A stretch of 35,243 nt of DNA from Patescibacteria group bacterium. Lineage in GTDB: Bacteria > Patescibacteriota > Microgenomatia > UBA1400 > JAHJAY01. Within the stretch, counting starts at the first letter, position 1, and every line of letters starts with the position of its first letter. The notes beneath the pieces are model-generated. The model saw only the letters and a program-made list of their open reading frames with translations, had not been told where the DNA came from and did no database searches. Position numbers and translations under genes: made by a program. The DNA is taken from contig JAHJAY010000018.1 in the NCBI GenBank assembly GCA_018813815.1, forward strand, positions 1 to 35,243, read 5' to 3'. Positions 5,372 to 26,068 of this stretch are shown here, piece by piece.

Positions 5372-5973
5372 CTTCGCCATTTAAAGACCGGATGGGCCAG
5401 CCACTTTCCTGGTTAGAGGCAGGTGAAAAAATCAGCGGCCGATTTTATAATTATTATTTGGATGCAAAAATCGCCTTGCTTTGGTTTTTGGGCTACATAC
5501 CTTTTCATTCAATTCGACGTTTTGTTTTTCAGTTGGCAGGAGTTAAAATTGGCCGGCAATCAACTATCCATATTGGTGCCCGCTTTTATCAACCAAAAAA
5601 TGTTCAAATTGGTGAAGGCACAATTATCGGCGATCATGCCATTCTTGACGGTCGGGCTAAGTTAATTATTGGTAATCATGTGGCGATGGCTTCCCGGGTA
5701 ATGATTTTTAACAGCCAGCATGATGTGGAAGCTGAAGATTTTAAGACGGTTGTCAAGCCGGTTGAAATCAATGACTATGTTTTTGTCGGTCCGCGGGCAA
5801 TCGTCCTTCCCGGAGTTAAAATCGGCCGGGGTGCGGTTGTAGCCGCCGGTGCCGTGGTGACTAAAGATGTTGAACCAATGACTGTGGTTGGCGGCGTGCC
5901 GGCTAAACCGATTCGTAAAAGGGGAGTGAAAGAACTGAACTATCGCTTGGGGCGGCCGCGCTTATTTCAATGA
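5368..5973 (+). CDS. Hexapeptide-repeat acyltransferase (LbetaH family)
   Basis: A 201-residue left-handed beta-helix acyltransferase, likely transferring an acetyl group from acetyl-CoA to a hydroxyl of the surface glycan. Hexapeptide turns are visible from about residue 60 (VKIGRQSTIHIGARF, VQIGEGTIIGDHAIL, LIIGNHVAMAS) and again near the end (VKIGRGAVVAAGAVVTKDV, then VVGGVPAKPIRKR, a classic family ending). His118 in NSQHD matches the catalytic His of the maltose/galactoside acetyltransferase group. A clear Shine-Dalgarno (AGGAGG at 5356-5361) precedes the ATG by 6 bases. The gene overlaps the upstream GT4 and downstream GT2 by 4 bases each. A hydrophobic N-terminal stretch (residues about 33-56) may lie on the membrane. 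The sugar substrate is unknown. Confidence 0.85.
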   Translation: MTSPFKDRMGQPLSWLEAGEKISGRFYNYYLDAKIALLWFLGYIPFHSIRRFVFQLAGVKIGRQSTIHIGARFYQPKNVQIGEGTIIGDHAILDGRAKLIIGNHVAMASRVMIFNSQHDVEAEDFKTVVKPVEINDYVFVGPRAIVLPGVKIGRGAVVAAGAVVTKDVEPMTVVGGVPAKPIRKRGVKELNYRLGRPRLFQ

Positions 5974-6866
5974 AGCTTTCAATAATTATTGTTGCTTATA
6001 ATTCTCAAAAAGACTTTGTCAGGCTTTTGCCCTCAATTTTTACTCAAAAAAAAGCCAAACCAGAAGTGATTGTGGTTGATAATGCTTCAACTGATAAAAC
6101 TGTTAGCTGGTTAAAAAAACATTATCCCAAGATAAAAGTAATTGCTAATCAACAAAACCGCGGCTTTGGTACAGCTAACAACCAGGGAATTAAAGCCGCC
6201 AGTAATGATTTGCTTTTTCTTTTAAATCCCGATACCCGGCTTCAGTTCGGTTGTTTAGAGCAGATTATTAGCTGGTTTACTGTTAATCCTGACAAACAAA
6301 TTGCCGGCTGCCAGTTGTTAAATCCTGATGGTTCAATCCAGCCCTCAGGCGGCTTTAACCCAACCTTGTTTAAGCTTTTTTGCTGGGCATTTTTTATTGA
6401 TGATTTGCCGATTTTCCGGCGGTTGGTAAAACCATATCAGGCGCGGGATCTAAGCTTTTATCAACAAGAGCGTCAGTTTGACTGGTTAATGGGGGCGGCT
6501 TTAATTTTCCGGCGGCCGGTCTTTAAACAAATCGGTTATTTTGACGAGCATATTTTCCTTTATGGCGAAGAAGTTGAATTGCTTTTTCGCGCCCAAAAAG
6601 CCAAAATTCCGGTTTGGTTTCTGCCTCAAGCAAAAGTGATGCATTGGGGCTATGATCCCAAACAATCCCTTAAAGAATCAGCTGTTTTAGGTGAATATCA
6701 GGCTCTGGATTATTTTTTCCGCAAACACCGGCCGGCTTGGCAGTGCTTAGTCCGGCGCCTGATTTTAAAAAGTGGCGCTTTCTTAAGGGCAATACTATTT
6801 GGTAAAATTACCCATAACAAGGAGAAAGCGAAGATTTATGAAAAAGCTTGGCGTTTGGTTAAATAA
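5970..6866 (+). CDS. Glycosyltransferase family 2 (WbbL-like)
   Basis: A 298-residue GT2 transferase of the rhamnosyltransferase/WbbL-like type. It starts with LSIIIVAYNSQKDF, has VVDNASTDKT at residues 35-44, the metal-binding NPD at 86-88 (LLNPDTRL), and YGEEVELLFRAQKAKIPVWF near residue 205, the acceptor-site acidic region. Its start overlaps the acyltransferase stop (ATGA), and its end overlaps the O-antigen ligase gene by 29 bases. WbbL-type enzymes add rhamnose to lipid-linked intermediates, but the donor cannot be assigned from sequence alone; no dTDP-rhamnose genes are in the window. Confidence 0.84.
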   Translation: MKLSIIIVAYNSQKDFVRLLPSIFTQKKAKPEVIVVDNASTDKTVSWLKKHYPKIKVIANQQNRGFGTANNQGIKAASNDLLFLLNPDTRLQFGCLEQIISWFTVNPDKQIAGCQLLNPDGSIQPSGGFNPTLFKLFCWAFFIDDLPIFRRLVKPYQARDLSFYQQERQFDWLMGAALIFRRPVFKQIGYFDEHIFLYGEEVELLFRAQKAKIPVWFLPQAKVMHWGYDPKQSLKESAVLGEYQALDYFFRKHRPAWQCLVRRLILKSGAFLRAILFGKITHNKEKAKIYEKAWRLVK

Positions 6867-10061: not shown

Positions 10062-10093
10062 TTTACTTGACAGAATATAACTTTGGTGTTATA
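10054..10093. promoter_or_regulatory. Candidate HigA operators (two inverted repeats)
   Basis: A perfect 12-base palindrome TAAATTAATTTA (10054-10065) touches the -35 box. TATAAC-N6-GTTATA (10076-10093) fills the spacer and overlaps the -10 box. Both positions suit repression by the antitoxin; assignment is by location and symmetry only. Confidence 0.45.
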
Positions 10094-10095
10094 GT
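10067..10095 (+). promoter_or_regulatory. Strong sigma70-type promoter for the HigBA pair
   Basis: Exact TTGACA (10067-10072), 17-base spacer, then TATAGT (10090-10095). Predicted transcription start is about 10102, giving a leader of roughly 7 bases to ATG 10109. This also explains why the apparent TTG start at 10067 is not a start codon: it is the -35 box. Confidence 0.7.
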
Positions 10096-10108
10096 TAAAA
10101 TCGTAAAG

Positions 10109-10456
10109 ATGTGGAAAGTTGATTTTTTTGAAAAGGAAATAGAGAGATTTTTAGATTTATTGTCTAAAAAAGAAAGGGCCAAGGTTTTAAGAAATATTTT
10201 TTTATTGGAGAGATTTGGCTTAGGCCTGCGTGAGCCAAATGTTAAATCATTAAAAATTAAAAAATTAAAAGAGTTAAGGATAATTTTTAGCTCGAAAATA
10301 TTTAGATTTTTGTTTTTTCATTATCAAGAAAAAACATTAGTAATTCTGCACGCTTTTATTAAAAAAACGCAAAAAACACCTGCAAAGGAAATAAGAATTG
10401 CCTTAGAAAGAATGAAACAATATAGAAAAAATAAAGGAGGAGCAGATGAATTATAG
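10109..10456 (+). CDS. higB: RelE/HigB-type toxin (phage Gp49-like family)
   Basis: A 115-residue basic protein. It has the layout of Gp49-like/HigB toxins of the RelE superfamily: WKVDFFEKEIERFLDLL at the start, an LKIKKLKELRIIFSS strand pair in the middle, FLFFHYQEKTLVILHAF as the core strand, and KKTQKTPAKEIRIALERM as the final helix. Relatives are ribosome-dependent mRNA endonucleases. ATG at 10109 is chosen because the longer frame would begin inside the promoter. It overlaps the downstream HTH antitoxin gene by 11 bases, the toxin-first order characteristic of higBA. The pair lies between two blocks of glycan genes and is more AT-rich than they are, consistent with an acquired module. 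Confidence 0.82.
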   Translation: MWKVDFFEKEIERFLDLLSKKERAKVLRNIFLLERFGLGLREPNVKSLKIKKLKELRIIFSSKIFRFLFFHYQEKTLVILHAFIKKTQKTPAKEIRIALERMKQYRKNKGGADEL

Positions 10457-18027: not shown

Positions 18028-19964
18028 AAATTGAAAAGATTGAGCTATCTCAACCGCCAGCTGAACAAACCGCCACTAAAGTAGTGAGTGGTAATAAAAA
18101 GCGCAAGCTGCCCAAGTGGTTTAAAACGGTTTTAATAATATTTTTTGTTTTACTGGTTTTACTGCTTGTTCAGGCAGTAGTCGTGGTGCCTGGTTTAATT
18201 AAAACTGGTAAAGAACTCAGTCACGTTGGCCAAACAATTACTGTCGGATTGCAAGCTCAGGATTTAATTCCGGTTAATGAGGGTTTAGCCGTTGCTGAAG
18301 AAGATTTACTTAAGCTTCAAAAACAGTATCGGTTACTAATTACTTATCGTTTTGTCCCGGGTTTAAGGGCTTATTATCAGGATGGTGAAGCCGGTTTAGC
18401 CGCTGCCTTAGCCGGGGTGCGGGCCGGTCAAATTTTAGTTCAAGCAATTGAACCTTATGCCGATATTCTTGGTTTTCGGGGCCACGGCAGTTTTGCTGGA
18501 GGAACGACAGAAGACCGCTTAATGAAAGTGGTGGAAACAATTAAAAAGTTACTCCGGAAATTGATCTGGTAGTTGAACAATTGGAGGTGGCAGAAGAGAA
18601 TTTAGCCCGGATTAACCCGGAGCGCTATCCTGAGAGTTTTAAAGATCAGGTAGTGCGTGCCAAGCTGATAAAAATTCAGCAAGCAGTTGGCGGCGGGGTA
18701 ACTACCCTTAAAGAACTTCGGCCCGGTCTGGAAGTTTTGCCGGCTTTATTAGGTCATCCGGAATCAAAAAAATACTTACTCATGTTTCAGAACGATACTG
18801 AAAAACGGCCAACCGGCGGTTTTATGACTGCCTATGCTACCCTGAATGTTGAGTCCGGCAAAGTGAGGGCGGAAGGCAGTCAGGATATTTATACCTTGGA
18901 TGCCAAGTTTAAACAGCGTCTTGAACCACCTGAACCGATTAAAAAAATACCATAAAAATGTGGCTTATTTTTATTTGCGCGATATGAATCTTTCGCCGGA
19001 TTTTAAAACTTCAATGGATCTATTCCGGACTTATTATGATGAGATTCCCGGTGAGTCGGAAGTTAATGGTGTGGTCGCGGTTGATACCCAAGTTTTGACC
19101 CGCCTGATAGAGGTTTTGGGGCCGGTTGAAGTGCCGGGTTATGGCAAGTTTACTGCTGAAATTGATGAACGCTGTAATTGCCCCAATATTATTTATCAAT
19201 TGGAATTAATTGCTGACGAACCGACCCATTTTTTTAAAGAAGACCGCAAGGGTGTTTTAGGACCGCTAATGCAGGAGATTATGTTTAAGGCTCTGGGAGC
19301 GGAAAATCATGTTTTTCCCCAGTTATTTGCTACTTTATGGCAGTCATTAAAAGAAAGACACATGTTGTTTTATTTTGATAATCCTGAAGAGCAGGCGGCG
19401 GCTGAAGCCATGGGGTTTGCCGGCCGAATTCAGCCGGCAAAAGGTGATTATTTAATGCTGGTGGATACTAATTTTGGCGGCGCTAAATCTGATTTGTATA
19501 TTGAGCAAACTATTGATCAGCAAATAAGCGTGGCTGATGACGGCAGTGTAGAAAAAACAGTTACCATTGAATATAAAAATCCCGAAGAACCGGACAACTG
19601 CAGTTTAGAAAGAGCATCCGGCTTATGTCTGAATGGGCTTTATCGTGACTGGGTCCGTTTATATGTGCCCCAGGGAAGTGAATTAATTGAGATTTTGGGT
19701 TCAGAAGTTGAGCCAGTCGTGTCTGAAGAAGGAGACAAAACTGTTTTTGAAGCTTTTTATGGTGATGAATCGCCTTTACGGCCTTTGGGTAAAGCCAAGC
19801 TGGTATTCCGCTATAAATTACCCTTTAAGGCAATTGATGACTATAATCTTTATTTGCAAAAACAAGCCGGGACTAAAGACTTTAACTACAGTTTTACCCT
19901 CAATGACCAGCCTCAACCGGGAATAGTTTTAAATCAAGACCAGCGATTGAATTTTAAGCTCTAA
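18021..19964 (+). pseudogene. DUF4012 membrane-anchored protein, split by two compensating 1-base shifts
   Basis: Three consecutive open frames add up to one DUF4012 protein of about 647 residues. Frame 1 (18021-18548) gives a short cytoplasmic part and one membrane helix (about residues 35-58). Near 18543-18548 (ATT AAA AAG) the homologous reading moves to the -1 frame, continuing TPEIDLVVEQLEVAEEN and reaching the core motif MFQNDTEKRPTGGFMTAY. Near 18941-18947 (seven A) the reading returns to the first frame, KKYHKNVAYFYLRDMNLSPD, and runs to 19964 through NGVVAVDTQVLTRLIEVLGP. One A too few and one A too many restore the frame overall. DUF4012 proteins are extracytoplasmic and often sit in polysaccharide loci; function is unknown. 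Sequencing error, recent decay or programmed slippage all remain possible. Confidence 0.82.
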
Positions 19965-19966
19965 AT

Positions 19967-20506
19967 TTGGCTTCTTACAAAGTTAACGCTATTGTTTTTA
20001 AATCCAAAGAAATCGGCGAAGCGGATCGCTTATTGACTGTTTTTTCTCAACATTATGGTAAGTTAACTTTAATGGCCAAAGGTGTGCGCCGGCCAATTTC
20101 CCGTAAAGCCGGTTGTTTACAGCCATTTAATCTGGTTAAGCTTGTAGTGGCTAAAACCAGAACCTGGCATATTATTACTGAAGCAGAGACTATTCAATGC
20201 TATACCCAGATTGTTGAGTCTCTTTCCAAAGCGGGCGCGGCTTATTATCTGGCAGAATTAGCTGATCAACTAGTGCCTTTGGAACAAAAGAACGAAGCGG
20301 TTTTTATTTTACTCAAACGTTTTTTTAGCCAACTTGACCAAGGAAAGCTTTATCCTAAGGATTTGTTTAATTATGCTTTTGAGCTCACCCAAATTCTGGG
20401 TTTTGGCCCGCCGGAACAGGTGACTGATCTAAAAAGCCTGGAACATTATCTTGAGTCTGTGATTGAGAAAGAGCTTAATAGCAAGTTTTTGCTTCGCCAA
20501 CTCTGA
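19967..20506 (+). CDS. recO: DNA repair protein RecO (short form)
   Basis: A 179-residue RecO, which helps load RecA on SSB-coated single-stranded DNA. The N-terminal OB-fold signature is clear: VNAIVFKSKEIGEADRLLTV, FSQHYGKLTLMAKGVRRPIS, then GCLQPFNLVKLVV. The helical C-terminal part ends with FELTQILGFGPP and a short tail. It is shorter than the roughly 240-residue E. coli protein and lacks a zinc-finger-like Cys cluster, as seems common in CPR genomes. The start is TTG 19967, two bases after the DUF4012 stop; no later start keeps the first strand. No strong Shine-Dalgarno is visible. Confidence in the family is high. Confidence 0.88.
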   Translation: MASYKVNAIVFKSKEIGEADRLLTVFSQHYGKLTLMAKGVRRPISRKAGCLQPFNLVKLVVAKTRTWHIITEAETIQCYTQIVESLSKAGAAYYLAELADQLVPLEQKNEAVFILLKRFFSQLDQGKLYPKDLFNYAFELTQILGFGPPEQVTDLKSLEHYLESVIEKELNSKFLLRQL

Positions 20507-20531: not shown

Positions 20532-20559
20532 TTGAAATATCCTATAATTATGGTAAACT
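20532..20559 (+). promoter_or_regulatory. Promoter of the unknown gene pair, predicted leaderless
   Basis: TTGAAA (20532-20537), 16-base spacer, TAAACT (20554-20559). The start codon follows 6 bases later, so transcription should begin at or next to the A of ATG 20566. An alternative -10 (TATAAT, 20543-20548) lies upstream without a matching -35. Confidence 0.5.
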
Positions 20560-20565
20560 ACCGAT

Positions 20566-21486
20566 ATGTTTGGAAAAGAGTTTGTATCAGGTCAGCATGA
20601 TGGAAAAGAACCTGGAGTTCAGGATTGGGTGCCAATGCGGCAGAGAGCTATGGGCCAACCGAGAATTATGGAGGCTGGGCCTTTTGTTTGGCAGCCTCAA
20701 TTTATTCTTTATGCTGAACATCTTGAGGTTAATAGCTTGGCGTTTGCTCTATTGCCTTTACTGGGGTTGGAAAAGCCGATTAAAATCGTTTCATATAATC
20801 CGCCAAAAGACAATGATGGGCCTGTAACAATGTTGGGTTCTATTTCTGCCAGCGGGGAGGCTGTGATCACTGGAGCTCTGGGAAGAGTTAAAAGACCTAA
20901 AAATGCTGGGGTATTTAGAGTCAATCAAGTGTCTGATGGAATTGAACTTCTTGTTAATTTTATTGGAATTGCCGATTATGTTGAAGCTGTTTTACCTGAT
21001 GGAAGAAGACATCCTCAATTTTTTGAAAGATATGGAGCAGAGATAGATAGAGCGATAAGAGGAAAAATGAAACAACTGCCCATATTAAACTTTTTACTTC
21101 ATGGTGTAGAACAACCTGGAGTCTTTTACAGTGAGCTTATGGGTTTTGCCATAAACTCACTCGCAGCAATTGTTGTCGCAGGTATAGGATCGTCGATGGT
21201 AATAAAGGAAAATCCTCATGACCCAGAAGCAGTTATTCCTCTTTTGCTTGCCTGTGGTCTTTTGTATGAGTTTGGGTGGACTTTACATAATGCAATAACT
21301 GTATGGTTAGAGCTAAGAAATCCCACAACTGATTCTATTAGAAAAGCTTATGCTGACTATTTAATTGAAAAGGTAGCAGTGGGAGATTTGCTTGGCTTAT
21401 TGTATCCTGAAAATTTAACGAACTATCTTTTTCTTCCATTGTTAGGTGCATTAGCTTGGAATAAAACTTTAATTCGGGGAAAATGA
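20566..21486 (+). CDS. Unrecognised membrane protein, first gene of an orphan pair
   Basis: I do not recognise this 306-residue protein. Residues 1-185 look soluble and mixed alpha/beta, with a Gly/Ser-rich MLGSISASGEAVITGALGRV stretch (89-108) and a charged segment FFERYGAEIDRAIRGKMKQ. Two strong hydrophobic helices follow (about 190-211 and 222-248), and a third weaker one lies near 270-296. No signal peptide or known catalytic motif is apparent. It begins a new transcript, with its own promoter at 20532-20559, and ends in an ATGA overlap with the next gene. Codon choice (AGA for Arg, ATA for Ile) is more AT-rich than in the adjoining recO and glyS genes, which hints at a different history. 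Confidence 0.75.
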   Translation: MFGKEFVSGQHDGKEPGVQDWVPMRQRAMGQPRIMEAGPFVWQPQFILYAEHLEVNSLAFALLPLLGLEKPIKIVSYNPPKDNDGPVTMLGSISASGEAVITGALGRVKRPKNAGVFRVNQVSDGIELLVNFIGIADYVEAVLPDGRRHPQFFERYGAEIDRAIRGKMKQLPILNFLLHGVEQPGVFYSELMGFAINSLAAIVVAGIGSSMVIKENPHDPEAVIPLLLACGLLYEFGWTLHNAITVWLELRNPTTDSIRKAYADYLIEKVAVGDLLGLLYPENLTNYLFLPLLGALAWNKTLIRGK

Positions 21487-22352
21487 ACGAACAATTCCAA
21501 AACTTAAAATCAACGCTCTACGAGCGTAAAATAAGAGCTGAATGGTTGCTAGAGGAGACTTCGTATCGGCTTCTTACTTCTCATAGAGAAAAATTAAGAG
21601 ACATGAAGCGTTTTGACAACCTTGTGGGTGGATTAATGAGTCTTTTAGATATTGATCCAACCATAGTTGCTAAACGACTAGCTCTAGATGGAGAACAGAC
21701 GAAAGTATTATTCTTTTTGCTTCAGGGGTTCCAAGAAGGAATGTTTGTGCGTCGTCGGCCAATCAGAAAATCCAGATGTGCCGATGAGAGGTTTTTGTAT
21801 GGTGCCTACAAGGTGACTCAAGCGCCTTTTATTTCTGCTAGAGAGAGAACAATGTCTGAGTCTGAATTAACTTTACTTTCAGCAATGGCAGAATTGTCTT
21901 TGCAAGAAGTCCGTATTGTTGCTTGCTGGAACTCAACGCACAATATGCCCTTAACAGCTAATTTTTGGGCATCAGGCGGTACAAAAATTAGCGGCAGCCT
22001 TTCTTTCATGTTTTTACCCATTAAGCCGGAATCTTTAGACGATTTATATATTCCCGGAACTCTTCCACTAATAAGGTCTCAGTTGGGAGAAGTTTGTTTA
22101 GTTGCCGGAGGAGGAGACAGGGTTGATTTTACAAGCGAATCTGATTCTATGGGTCAAAAAAAGACCACAACTAACAGATTCTATTATTTAGGAGAATTTT
22201 CTTTTGCTAGTAGAGATTTTGATAGCCAAAGGGTTCATTGTTGGGGACATAATTCAAAGTATCATTCAAAAACACGCCCTGTGGCGGAGAGGTTAATGGC
22301 TCATCAGTCTCGCGTAAGACAAACTGCAGCAGTTAAAATTACTCCTTGGTAA
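21483..22352 (+). CDS. Unrecognised soluble protein, second gene of an orphan pair
   Basis: I do not recognise this 289-residue protein. It has no signal peptide or membrane segment. The N-terminal third (residues 1-95) is helical and charged, with LYERKIRAEWLLEETSYRLL and LDIDPTIVAKRLALDGEQTK; a basic patch VRRRPIRKSRC follows near residue 90. The rest looks beta-rich with a late cluster of aromatic and His/Cys residues (FDSQRVHCWGHNSKYHSK). It overlaps the preceding membrane-protein gene by 4 bases, so translation is probably coupled and the two products may form a complex. AGA codons dominate for Arg, as in its partner. A regulatory, defence or surface role cannot be chosen from the sequence. 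Confidence 0.75.
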   Translation: MNEQFQNLKSTLYERKIRAEWLLEETSYRLLTSHREKLRDMKRFDNLVGGLMSLLDIDPTIVAKRLALDGEQTKVLFFLLQGFQEGMFVRRRPIRKSRCADERFLYGAYKVTQAPFISARERTMSESELTLLSAMAELSLQEVRIVACWNSTHNMPLTANFWASGGTKISGSLSFMFLPIKPESLDDLYIPGTLPLIRSQLGEVCLVAGGGDRVDFTSESDSMGQKKTTTNRFYYLGEFSFASRDFDSQRVHCWGHNSKYHSKTRPVAERLMAHQSRVRQTAAVKITPW

Positions 22353-22360
22353 CACTCCCC

Positions 22361-22388
22361 TTGAAAAATCAGCCCCAGACTATACAAT
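22361..22388 (+). promoter_or_regulatory. glyS promoter, predicted leaderless
   Basis: TTGAAA (22361-22366), 16-base spacer, TACAAT (22383-22388), then 6 bases to ATG 22395. The geometry is the same as at 20532-20559, so the mRNA probably begins with the start codon. Confidence 0.6.
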
Positions 22389-22394
22389 AAGTTT

Positions 22395-23756
22395 ATGGTT
22401 GATTTGTTGTCAAAAGTGGTATCTCTGTCTAAGCGGCGCGGCTTTGTTTTTCCCGGTTCGGAAATTTACGGTGGTTTAGCCAACACCTATGATCTGGGGC
22501 CCTTGGGAGTTGAACTTAAGCGTAATATTGTCAATCTTTGGTGGCAGGAGTTTGTCCACCGTTATCCGGAAATCTATGGTTTAGACACCAGTATTTTAAT
22601 GAGCCCGCGGGTTTGGGAAGCATCCGGTCATACTGAGAGTTTTAGCGATGTTTTGATTGACTGCACAAATTGCCAGTTAAGAACCCGGGCCGATCATTTA
22701 ATTGAAGATAATTTGCCGGACTTAAAAGTCGAAGGCAAAACGTCCAAAGAGCTTTTTGAGTTGATTAAAACCCACCAACTTAAATGTCCTAACTGTAATC
22801 AGTTTTCCTGGACACCGCCGCGGAATTTTAACCTTTTGTTTAAAACTGAAGTTGGCATTGTGGCCGGCAAAAAAAATACCGCTTACTTGCGGGGTGAAAC
22901 CGCCCAGGGAATGTTTGTTAATTTTAAGCAGGTGCTGGATTCAATCCGCCCCCAGCTGCCCTTTGGTTTGGCCCAAGTCGGCAAGGCCTTTCGCAATGAA
23001 ATTACTTTGGGTAAGTTTACTTTCCGGGTTTTAGAATTTGATTTGGCCGAGTTTGAGTATTTTGTTAGAGCAGATGAATGGGAAAAGTGGTTTGGGTTTT
23101 GGCAGGAAAAAACCCATGATTTTGCCCTTAAATTGGGAATTAATAAGCAAAAACTCCGCTGGCGGCCCCACACTAAAGACGAGTTATGCCATTATTCTAA
23201 ACGCACTGAAGACTTAGAGTATAACTATCCTTTTGGTTTTAAAGAGTGGCTGGCGGTGGCTTATAGAACAGATTTTGACTTAAAAAACCATATGGAAAAA
23301 TCCGGGGTTGATTTGAATTACACTGATCCTCAGACGGGCGAGCGTTTTATTCCTCATGTGATTGAGCCGACATTTGGGATTACCCGGAGCCTGACAACGG
23401 TTTTAATTGATGCTTACCATCAGGAAAAAGACCGCCTAATTCTTAAACTAAAACCTGAGATTGCGCCTTATAAAGCCGCGGTTTTTCCTTTATTGGCCAA
23501 CAAGCCCAAACTGGTGGCTTTGGCTCAGCAGGTTTACCAAGATCTCAGCCAGTCTTTGGTTGTGGCCTGGGATGAGCGGGGCAATATTGGCAAGCGTTAT
23601 TATAGTCAGGATGAAATCGGCACCCCTTGGTGTGTAACTATTGATTTTGATAGTCTTGAAGATAAAGCAGTCACTGTTAGGGACCGCGACACTACCAAAC
23701 AAGAGCGAATTGGTATTAACAAGCTGGGCAGTTATTTTAAGGAGAAGTTAGCATGA
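22395..23756 (+). CDS. glyS: Glycyl-tRNA synthetase, class II homodimer type
   Basis: A 453-residue class II synthetase that charges tRNA-Gly. It is the single-chain (alpha2, eukaryote/archaea/Gram-positive-like) type, not the E. coli alpha-beta type. Signatures are SKRRGFVFPGSEIYGGLANT at the start, YDLGPLGVELKRN, PRVWEASGHTESFSD, a zinc-finger-like pair of CxxC motifs (CTNCQ and CPNCN), LRGETAQGMFVNFK, FRNEITLGKFTFRVLEFDLAEFEYF (motif 2), and HVIEPTFGITRSL (motif 3), followed by the anticodon-binding domain. No Shine-Dalgarno is visible; the promoter at 22361-22388 predicts a leaderless message. Its stop overlaps the next gene by 4 bases. Confidence 0.95.
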   Translation: MVDLLSKVVSLSKRRGFVFPGSEIYGGLANTYDLGPLGVELKRNIVNLWWQEFVHRYPEIYGLDTSILMSPRVWEASGHTESFSDVLIDCTNCQLRTRADHLIEDNLPDLKVEGKTSKELFELIKTHQLKCPNCNQFSWTPPRNFNLLFKTEVGIVAGKKNTAYLRGETAQGMFVNFKQVLDSIRPQLPFGLAQVGKAFRNEITLGKFTFRVLEFDLAEFEYFVRADEWEKWFGFWQEKTHDFALKLGINKQKLRWRPHTKDELCHYSKRTEDLEYNYPFGFKEWLAVAYRTDFDLKNHMEKSGVDLNYTDPQTGERFIPHVIEPTFGITRSLTTVLIDAYHQEKDRLILKLKPEIAPYKAAVFPLLANKPKLVALAQQVYQDLSQSLVVAWDERGNIGKRYYSQDEIGTPWCVTIDFDSLEDKAVTVRDRDTTKQERIGINKLGSYFKEKLA

Positions 23757-24629: not shown

Positions 24630-24907
24630 ATGCAAATGCATAGAACACAGATTTATTTTCCTGAAGAGCACTTGGAAATTCTTAGACAGGAAGCAGTTAA
24701 AAAAGGCGTCAGTTGGCCCGGATAATTAGAAGTAAAGTTGAAGCGAAGACTCCAGCAATAAAAACAGCTAAGAAAAGAAAAACCAAAAAAATAAAAATGA
24801 CTGGGGCTGGTCTTTTATTGAAAATGGCCAAACAAGCAGAAAAGCAAGGGTTTAAAGGACCCAAGGATTTAGCCAGCAACGTTGATAAATATCTATATGG
24901 GGCTTAA
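24630..24907 (+). pseudogene. VapB-type ribbon-helix-helix antitoxin, frameshifted
   Basis: Reading from ATG 24630 (Shine-Dalgarno GGAG nearby) gives MQMHRTQIYFPEEHLEIL and then RQEAVKKGVS before a premature TAA at 24723-24725. From TTG 24713 in the next frame the protein continues LARIIRSKVEAKTPAIK to a TAA at 24905-24907. Joined at GVS-LARI, this is a normal 92-residue MetJ/Arc-type antitoxin: an N-terminal beta-strand and two helices for DNA binding, a Lys-rich linker, and a toxin-binding tail with GFKGPKDLASNVDKYLYG. One T appears to be missing at about 24711-24714. AAAGG lies just before TTG 24713, so the tail could be translated alone. It overlaps the toxin gene by 11 bases. Confidence 0.8.
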
Positions 24908-25325
24908 AAGTATATTTGTTGATACCAACTATTTTTGCGGCCTTTATAATTCAGCAGATACTCTTCATTTAAAAAGCAAAGAAATCTTTGAAAAATTTAA
25001 GAAAACGCAGCACAAATTATATACTTCCAGTTTTATTGTTGCTGAGGTCTTAACTGTTTTATCACAGCGAATTGGTAAAAAATCGTCAATAGATTTTGGC
25101 ACAGACATACTTAGTCAGGAAAATCTGATTAAGATTTTACGGATCAATACAAAAATAGAGCGCGACGCTTTTGTAATTTTTAAAAAGATAAAAAGTAAAA
25201 ATTTCAGCTTTGTTGATGCGCTTAGTTTGGCTCTAATTAAAAAACATAAAATTAACCTTTTACTTACGTTTGACAAGCAGTTAGTTAACCTGGCTAAAAC
25301 CAATAATATAAAGATTTTGTCTTAA
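24897..25325 (+). CDS. VapC-type PIN-domain toxin (first module)
   Basis: A 142-residue PIN-domain ribonuclease. The four acidic residues expected at the metal site are visible: Asp9 in FVDTN, Glu50 in VAEVL, Asp107 in FVDALS and Asp126 in TFDKQL. VapC toxins cleave RNA, often tRNA or rRNA, and are held inactive by the partner antitoxin. ATG 24897 is preferred to TTG 24882 because it begins right before the first strand and gives a normal length. The antitoxin gene directly upstream is frameshifted while this toxin is intact. The last seven residues (NNIKILS), the stop and ten further bases are nearly identical to the end of the second vapC gene. Confidence 0.85.
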   Translation: MGLKSIFVDTNYFCGLYNSADTLHLKSKEIFEKFKKTQHKLYTSSFIVAEVLTVLSQRIGKKSSIDFGTDILSQENLIKILRINTKIERDAFVIFKKIKSKNFSFVDALSLALIKKHKINLLLTFDKQLVNLAKTNNIKILS

Positions 25326-25336
25326 GCCTACGATCT
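25302..25336 (+). repeat. 35-base direct repeat, copy 1 (end of first vapC)
   Basis: Begins AATAATATAAAGATTTTGTC and ends CTACGATCT. It covers the last codons and stop of the first vapC and extends 11 bases past the stop. Copy 2 at 26045-26079 differs by one base. Confidence 0.75.
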
Positions 25337-25350
25337 AAAGAGTAGTGCCT

Positions 25351-25396
25351 ACTTTACTTATTGACAAAAGTAAAGCTGGAATATAAACTTACTTTA
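25351..25396. promoter_or_regulatory. Candidate AbrB operator: three copies of a TTTACT/AGTAAA element
   Basis: ACTTTACT (25351-25358), its inverse AGTAAAG (25369-25375) and TTACTTTA (25389-25396) lie at about 18-20-base intervals across the promoter. The spacing suits a dimeric AbrB-type repressor; not otherwise supported. Confidence 0.4.
25361..25389 (+). promoter_or_regulatory. Promoter of the AbrB-VapC module, nearly leaderless
   Basis: TTGACA (25361-25366), 17-base spacer, TAAACT (25384-25389). The ATG follows 9 bases later at 25399, leaving a predicted leader of only about 3 bases. TATAAA (25382-25387) is an alternative -10 at a poor spacing of 15. Confidence 0.6.
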
Positions 25397-25398
25397 TT

Positions 25399-25659
25399 AT
25401 GATAACAGCCACACTTTCAAGCAGAAACCAAATTACTATTCCTAAGGCGTTTTTAGAGTTTTTTGCCATTAAAAGTGGTGATAAACTATTAATTGAAGCC
25501 AGAGATAAGGCGATAAAACTACAACCAATGGGCAGAAGTGTGATTAGATCGCTTGGGGGCAGCGTCACAATCGCTAAAGCCCAAAAAGGAATGTCTTTGC
25601 AAAAAGTGATGAGAATAACCCAAAAAAGAGTCGCTCAAAAATTAGTCAATGAAAACTAA
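25399..25659 (+). CDS. AbrB/MazE-type swapped-hairpin antitoxin
   Basis: An 86-residue protein with an N-terminal SpoVT/AbrB DNA-binding domain: ATLSSRNQITIPKAF at residues 4-18 is the standard family opening, followed by FFAIKSGDKLLIEARDKAIK. The C-terminal half is basic and helical (KAQKGMSLQKVMRITQKRVA) and probably wraps the PIN toxin. Its 3' end overlaps the toxin gene by 11 bases, so the two are co-translated. It likely represses its own promoter. The mRNA is predicted to begin about 3 bases before the ATG and there is no Shine-Dalgarno. Confidence 0.87.
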   Translation: MITATLSSRNQITIPKAFLEFFAIKSGDKLLIEARDKAIKLQPMGRSVIRSLGGSVTIAKAQKGMSLQKVMRITQKRVAQKLVNEN

Positions 25660-26068
25660 GCATTTTTTAATTGATACTAACTTTATTCTTCGTTTTTTGC
25701 TTGATGTTCCTTCTCAGTTTAAAGAGGCTGAAAGAGTTTTTAAAAAAATAGAAGACAAAACAGCAACCGGGGTTGTAAGCGTTTTGGTTATTAATGAGTT
25801 AATTTGGATTTTTCAATATTTTTACAAGAAAAAACGCCAAGATTTTATTCCTCAAATTTTGAAGCTATTGTCTTTAAAAAACATTAAAATTTTAGAAATA
25901 AAAAAAGCTGAATTAATTAACATTTTAAAAGCAAGTTTAGAAAACAATTTTGATTATACTGATCTTTACCTTTTATTTCTTAGTAAAAAGTCCGGTCAAT
26001 CGATTCAATCTTTTGATAAGCAGCTGATTAGGGCGACTAAGCTAAATAATATAAAGATTTTGTCTTAA
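25649..26068 (+). CDS. VapC-type PIN-domain toxin (second module)
   Basis: A 139-residue PIN-domain ribonuclease with metal-site acidic residues Asp9 (LIDTN), Glu50 (INELIW), Asp105 (FDYTD) and Asp123 (SFDKQL). It is partnered with the AbrB-type antitoxin upstream, overlapping it by 11 bases. The protein is only moderately like the first vapC product over most of its length, but both end in an SFDKQL/TFDKQL helix and NNIKILS, and the DNA identity becomes near-perfect over the last 35 bases, running past the stop. The adjoining modules may therefore have formed by recombination at this shared tail. Confidence 0.86.
   Translation: MKTKHFLIDTNFILRFLLDVPSQFKEAERVFKKIEDKTATGVVSVLVINELIWIFQYFYKKKRQDFIPQILKLLSLKNIKILEIKKAELINILKASLENNFDYTDLYLLFLSKKSGQSIQSFDKQLIRATKLNNIKILS

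Follow-up and report, generated by a model that had tools for sequence, protein, structure and literature searches.

The question raised by the recO-glyS junction of this window, the whole analysed stretch of 35,243 nucleotides from a genome of 0.84 Mb, is whether the two adjoining genes lying there, P1 and P2, form one undescribed system or are two separate accessory genes. The encoded proteins have 306 and 289 residues, and the end of P1 and the start of P2 are joined by a 4-base overlap (ATGA). The sizes and the overlap given in the earlier note were verified, and the coordinates are listed in Table 1. As judged from sequence conservation, both are genuine genes, because homologues at 16-33% identity retain specific residues.

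Table 1. Features of the P1-P2 locus and the homologous or comparable features in other genomes.
Feature	Location	Strand	Genome	Description
recO	19967..20506	+		left border of the insertion; PF11967 and PF02565 matches; full length for the lineage
Promoter-like site	20532..20559	+		TTGAAA-16-TAAACT (extended -10); ends 6 nt ahead of the P1 ATG
P1	20566..21486	+		N-terminal soluble part ~1-180, hydrophobic hairpin ~185-251, C-terminal helices; unnamed family
P2	21483..22352	+		N-terminal helices 2-84, beta-rich domain 88-266, without membrane segment; unnamed family
glyS	22395..23756	+		right border; own leaderless-type promoter at 22361-22388
P1 homologue	L028:74-838		G090	33% identity
P1 homologue, C-terminal piece	L029:144-389		G090
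P1 homologue	L030:1-531		G245	30% identity
P1 homologue	L031:6178-7053		G238
P2 homologue	L018:8047-8838		G291	28% over the alignment
P2 homologues, tandem pair	L016:4693-5451 and 5645-6469		G392
P2 homologue	L017:205-987		G226
Orphan junction ORFs	L040:853-1455, L049:3247-3612, L053:761-1443, L059:1252-1458			other genomes of the order

The earlier note had recognised neither protein and had called for profile and structure searches; these were run for both, and no clear match to a known family was obtained. Nothing exceeded the curated cut-offs in Pfam and NCBIfam, PADLOC at E<=1 matched neither P1 nor P2, nor the homologues at L018:8047-8835 and L028:77-838, and PHROGs gave weak sub-threshold matches. 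The sequence searches of the PDB yielded composition-type matches, among them one of P1 to a designed helical repeat, which had an overall E of 3e-6 with no single passing stretch and was attributed to coiled or repetitive composition. With Foldseek, nothing significant was found against the PDB for either model or against viral proteins for the P2 model. Because both models are of low-to-moderate confidence, a known fold may still be hidden in either protein. Homology of P1 and P2 to each other, to the junction ORFs of G002, G026 and G015 or to neighbouring orphan genes was rejected, as no profile similarity was detected. Single-sequence scans of the genome contigs gave no matches, and no structured RNA was found.

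The model of P1 is weak (pLDDT 55, pTM 0.49) and, together with hydropathy, places two adjoining hydrophobic helices at residues ~185-214 and ~220-251, in line with the N-terminal soluble part and helix pair described previously. P1 probably enters the membrane as a hairpin and carries a cytosolic head. The residues ahead of helix 1 and after helix 2 are basic and those in the turn are acidic, and this charge pattern suggests that both ends are cytosolic. The conserved positions of the family, scattered but consistent (alignment A3), are W21, R25, G38, W42, P44, I47, P71, P79, F132 and G157. Residues 255-299 resemble the C-terminal segment of an MFS transporter of G291, with 40% identity over 45 residues; this likeness is a single short segment, for which the family profile gave an E of only 0.33 and Pfam no match, and a transporter origin of the P1 C-terminus was therefore rejected as a chance BLAST match.

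P2 is most likely a cytosolic helical plus beta protein, and its model is of moderate quality (pLDDT 64, pTM 0.68). Its family is marked by L178-P179, G211, a YYLLG-type strand and a C-terminal Y/W-G-x-N (alignment A2), the C-terminal signature being of the type Y-Y-L-L-G ... W-L-Y-G-x-N. The tail had been called His/Cys-rich, and the final 60 residues do contain four His and one Cys; among the five homologues, however, these residues vary or are absent, with no conserved His/Cys ligands, and a metal-binding tail is not supported. A profile match to tryptophan 2,3-dioxygenase (E 0.016 over 100 columns) lacks conserved context and is ascribed to chance.

With respect to transcription, a promoter-like site does precede P1, as had been proposed, but it is not distinctive. 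The TAAACT box is preceded by TG and ends at 20559, and the transcript of P1 and P2 is probably leaderless, a TAnnnT box a few nucleotides ahead of the start codon being the signature of leaderless genes (PMC3160421). The promoter of glyS next door has the same layout, and a TAnnnT box lies just before the glyS start in 16 of 27 relatives, compared with ~12% at random positions; the layout is therefore a norm of the lineage and not a mark of the P1-P2 unit. Since glyS has a leaderless-type promoter of its own, the arrangement suggests that P1-P2 and glyS are transcribed separately. The shared promoter-like site and the ATGA overlap, both read from the sequence, suggest joint expression of P1 and P2 in the genome of the window.

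The predicted joint expression at one locus can be compared with the occurrence of the genes elsewhere. Homologues were sought within the window's own class in two successive searches, of 281 and 374 genomes, and each family was found in four of the 374, the window's genome counted in each. P1 occurs in 2 of the 72 genomes of the family to which G238 belongs and gave no match in the other 52 genomes searched in the order, and in a draw of 333 genomes from the phylum, the window's genome was the sole carrier of either family. No credible match to the P1 profile (A3) turned up in G291, G392 or G226, the carriers of P2, beyond the transporter segment mentioned above, and the P2 profile (A2) found nothing in the P1 genomes G090, G245 and G238. 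Among these draft genomes, P1 thus accompanies P2 in 0 of 3 and P2 accompanies P1 in 0 of 3. The earlier note took the pair as the best candidate in the window for an undescribed system and itself named separate carriage by relatives as the observation against this; the proposal fails that test, because P2-bearing relatives lack a detectable P1 and vice versa. The profiles were built on 4-5 divergent sequences and the searched genomes are 80-98% complete, so a very diverged partner could escape detection. The main weakness of the separation result is that homologues lie near or at contig ends in G226, G392, G090 and G245 (L016, L017, L028, L029, L030), which restricts the view of linkage to one side in some genomes; the same position hints at strain-variable regions that break assemblies.

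The homologues occupy loci other than recO-glyS and have unrelated genes around them. The tandem P2 pair of G392 follows dnaX, the P2 homologue of G226 has tRNA genes and an unknown 522-residue protein as neighbours, and that of G291 is located within an array of unrelated orphan genes. The C-terminal P1 piece of G090 lies beside a putative Fic-type protein, so called after a motif in its sequence, and other orphan genes surround the P1 homologue of G238. In G291 the run of unknown genes (L018:6522-10976) encodes, among others, a 453-residue protein that has an HESIH motif and a single hydrophobic segment. Because the distant relatives never occur together, P1 and P2 are read as separate genes, and the evidence is better explained by two independently exchanged accessory genes than by an obligate system.

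A true two-component membrane module, for example in defence or envelope stress, in which P1 would be the effector or anchor and P2 the cytosolic sensor or regulator, with the partner swapped in other genomes, where P2 adjoins other unknown genes, is an unlikely alternative that draws on the overlap and the single promoter, as well as on the unrelated larger proteins with hydrophobic stretches that G291 and G226 encode upstream of their P2 homologues. It is opposed by the occurrence of each gene without the other, by the failure of PADLOC, Pfam, NCBIfam and PHROGs to place either protein, by the position of the G392 homologue after dnaX, where it is itself duplicated in tandem, and by the lack of profile similarity to P1 in the upstream protein of G291. 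A narrower form, in which P2 would be a modular cytosolic component pairing with a different membrane protein from one CPR genome to the next, P1 being the one here, in an undescribed, membrane-associated and partner-swapping defence or host-interaction system, is considered improbable.

The history of the junction bears on whether the pair is ancestral. The order DUF4012-recO-glyS is conserved in most genomes of the order examined, and in many of them only 10-124 nt separate recO and glyS; recO is followed by a gap of 10 nt in G018, the closest genome (glyS identity 73%), and of 80 nt in the likewise close G027. Elsewhere the junction holds ORFs of 200 aa (G002), 121 aa (G026), 110 and 100 aa (G015) and 68 aa (G029), and those of G002, G026 and G015 are unrelated to the P1 and P2 profiles. 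The suspicion that recO-glyS is a recurrent insertion point was borne out within the order, the cargo being different every time. Truncation of recO by the insertion was rejected; RecO has the same length in relatives and is judged intact because theirs stops at the same place. Upstream, the DUF4012 gene is split across two overlapping frames (profile positions 3-47 in 18581-18955 and 62-131 in 18900-19964), possibly by a frameshift or an assembly error. Beyond glyS, a toxin-antitoxin cluster at 24882-26068 consists of two PIN-domain paralogues of 147 and 139 aa on either side of a MazE-type antitoxin at 25399-25659.

The AGA-rich codon use that set the two genes apart from their flanks was confirmed. 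AGA accounts for 12 of the 14 Arg codons in P1 and 10 of the 25 in P2, compared with 55 of 469 in the other genes of the window (Fisher p=1.5e-9 and 5e-4, respectively), and the codon log-likelihoods of P1 (0.070) and P2 (0.017) are the two lowest among 34 genes scored, the next being 0.099. The tandem P2 pair of G392 is likewise AGA/AGG-rich relative to its neighbours (p=6e-12); the codon use of the homologues in G291, G226, G090 and G238 is not unusual. The codon use of P1 and P2 looks foreign, but weak selection rather than transfer could explain part of it. Elsewhere in the window, a Gp49-like (DUF891) gene at 10067-10456 has a GC content of 26% and AGA in 7 of 10 Arg codons, and is probably another acquired gene of toxin-antitoxin type.

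A single ancestral P1-P2 operon, vertically inherited, lost in most relatives and diverged beyond recognition in others, would account for homologues scattered over several families of the class. It is given little credence, since the junction is nearly empty in G018 and G027, the rest of the order searched gave no P1 match, the homologues occupy other loci and the codon use looks foreign. Also improbable is a remnant of a phage or plasmid insertion carrying structural or moron genes, to which the AGA-rich codons, the tRNA gene adjoining P2 in G226 and the weak matches of the P2 model, scattered among viral beta proteins, would point, but whose fold matches are non-significant, whose site shows no integrase, recombinase or other phage gene and only short, unconvincing direct repeats, and for which no relatives of the genes were found on viral contigs, in phages or, for P2, in plasmids.

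The reading we consider probable is that P1 and P2 are separate, fast-diverging and sporadic accessory families of a small-genome Patescibacteria/CPR-like class, which are here adjacent and presumably co-transcribed. The size of the genome, 0.84 Mb, and its gene content suggest that it is a member of this group. They were most likely acquired independently at a permissive recO-glyS site, and such independent exchange agrees with the extensive and frequent gene transfer reported among Patescibacteria (PMC12455944). A single leaderless promoter would drive both genes, and the ATGA overlap would couple the translation of P2 to that of P1. P1 would be inserted in the cytoplasmic membrane by its two-helix hairpin, with the N-terminal domain and the C-terminal tail in the cytosol, where P2 would reside as a helical plus antiparallel-beta protein. 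The functions would be accessory and non-essential, that of P1 perhaps at the envelope, with which it is probably associated; this role, the topology of P1 and the gain by transfer are what we infer from the data above. The overlap and the common promoter suggest some functional link in the genome of the window, and the shared operon may permit joint action here, with no mutual dependence across relatives.

Two small, well-delimited unnamed families with alignments are thereby added to the large pool of CPR-type orphan genes, and a housekeeping junction that repeatedly gains unrelated orphan genes offers a modest, testable way to follow how streamlined genomes acquire genes.

In comparison with known proteins, the P2 model has an alpha plus antiparallel beta layout in common with PsbP, LpqN and MTC28-type antiparallel sheet proteins, which are among the top ranks of the Foldseek matches. 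These matches are weak (E 0.04-0.4, zero at E<=0.001 with a model of pLDDT 64), with TM-scores <0.35 and no sequence match, and do not suffice to place P2 among these proteins. A parallel in kind lies in the families enriched in Microgenomates, which are mainly hypothetical and in many cases membrane-located (PMC6744442). Like P1 and P2, these hypothetical families of Microgenomates and Parcubacteria belong to small-genome hosts, are unannotated and include a share predicted to be membrane-located; they are widespread in their lineages, in contrast to the rare and patchy occurrence of P1 and P2.
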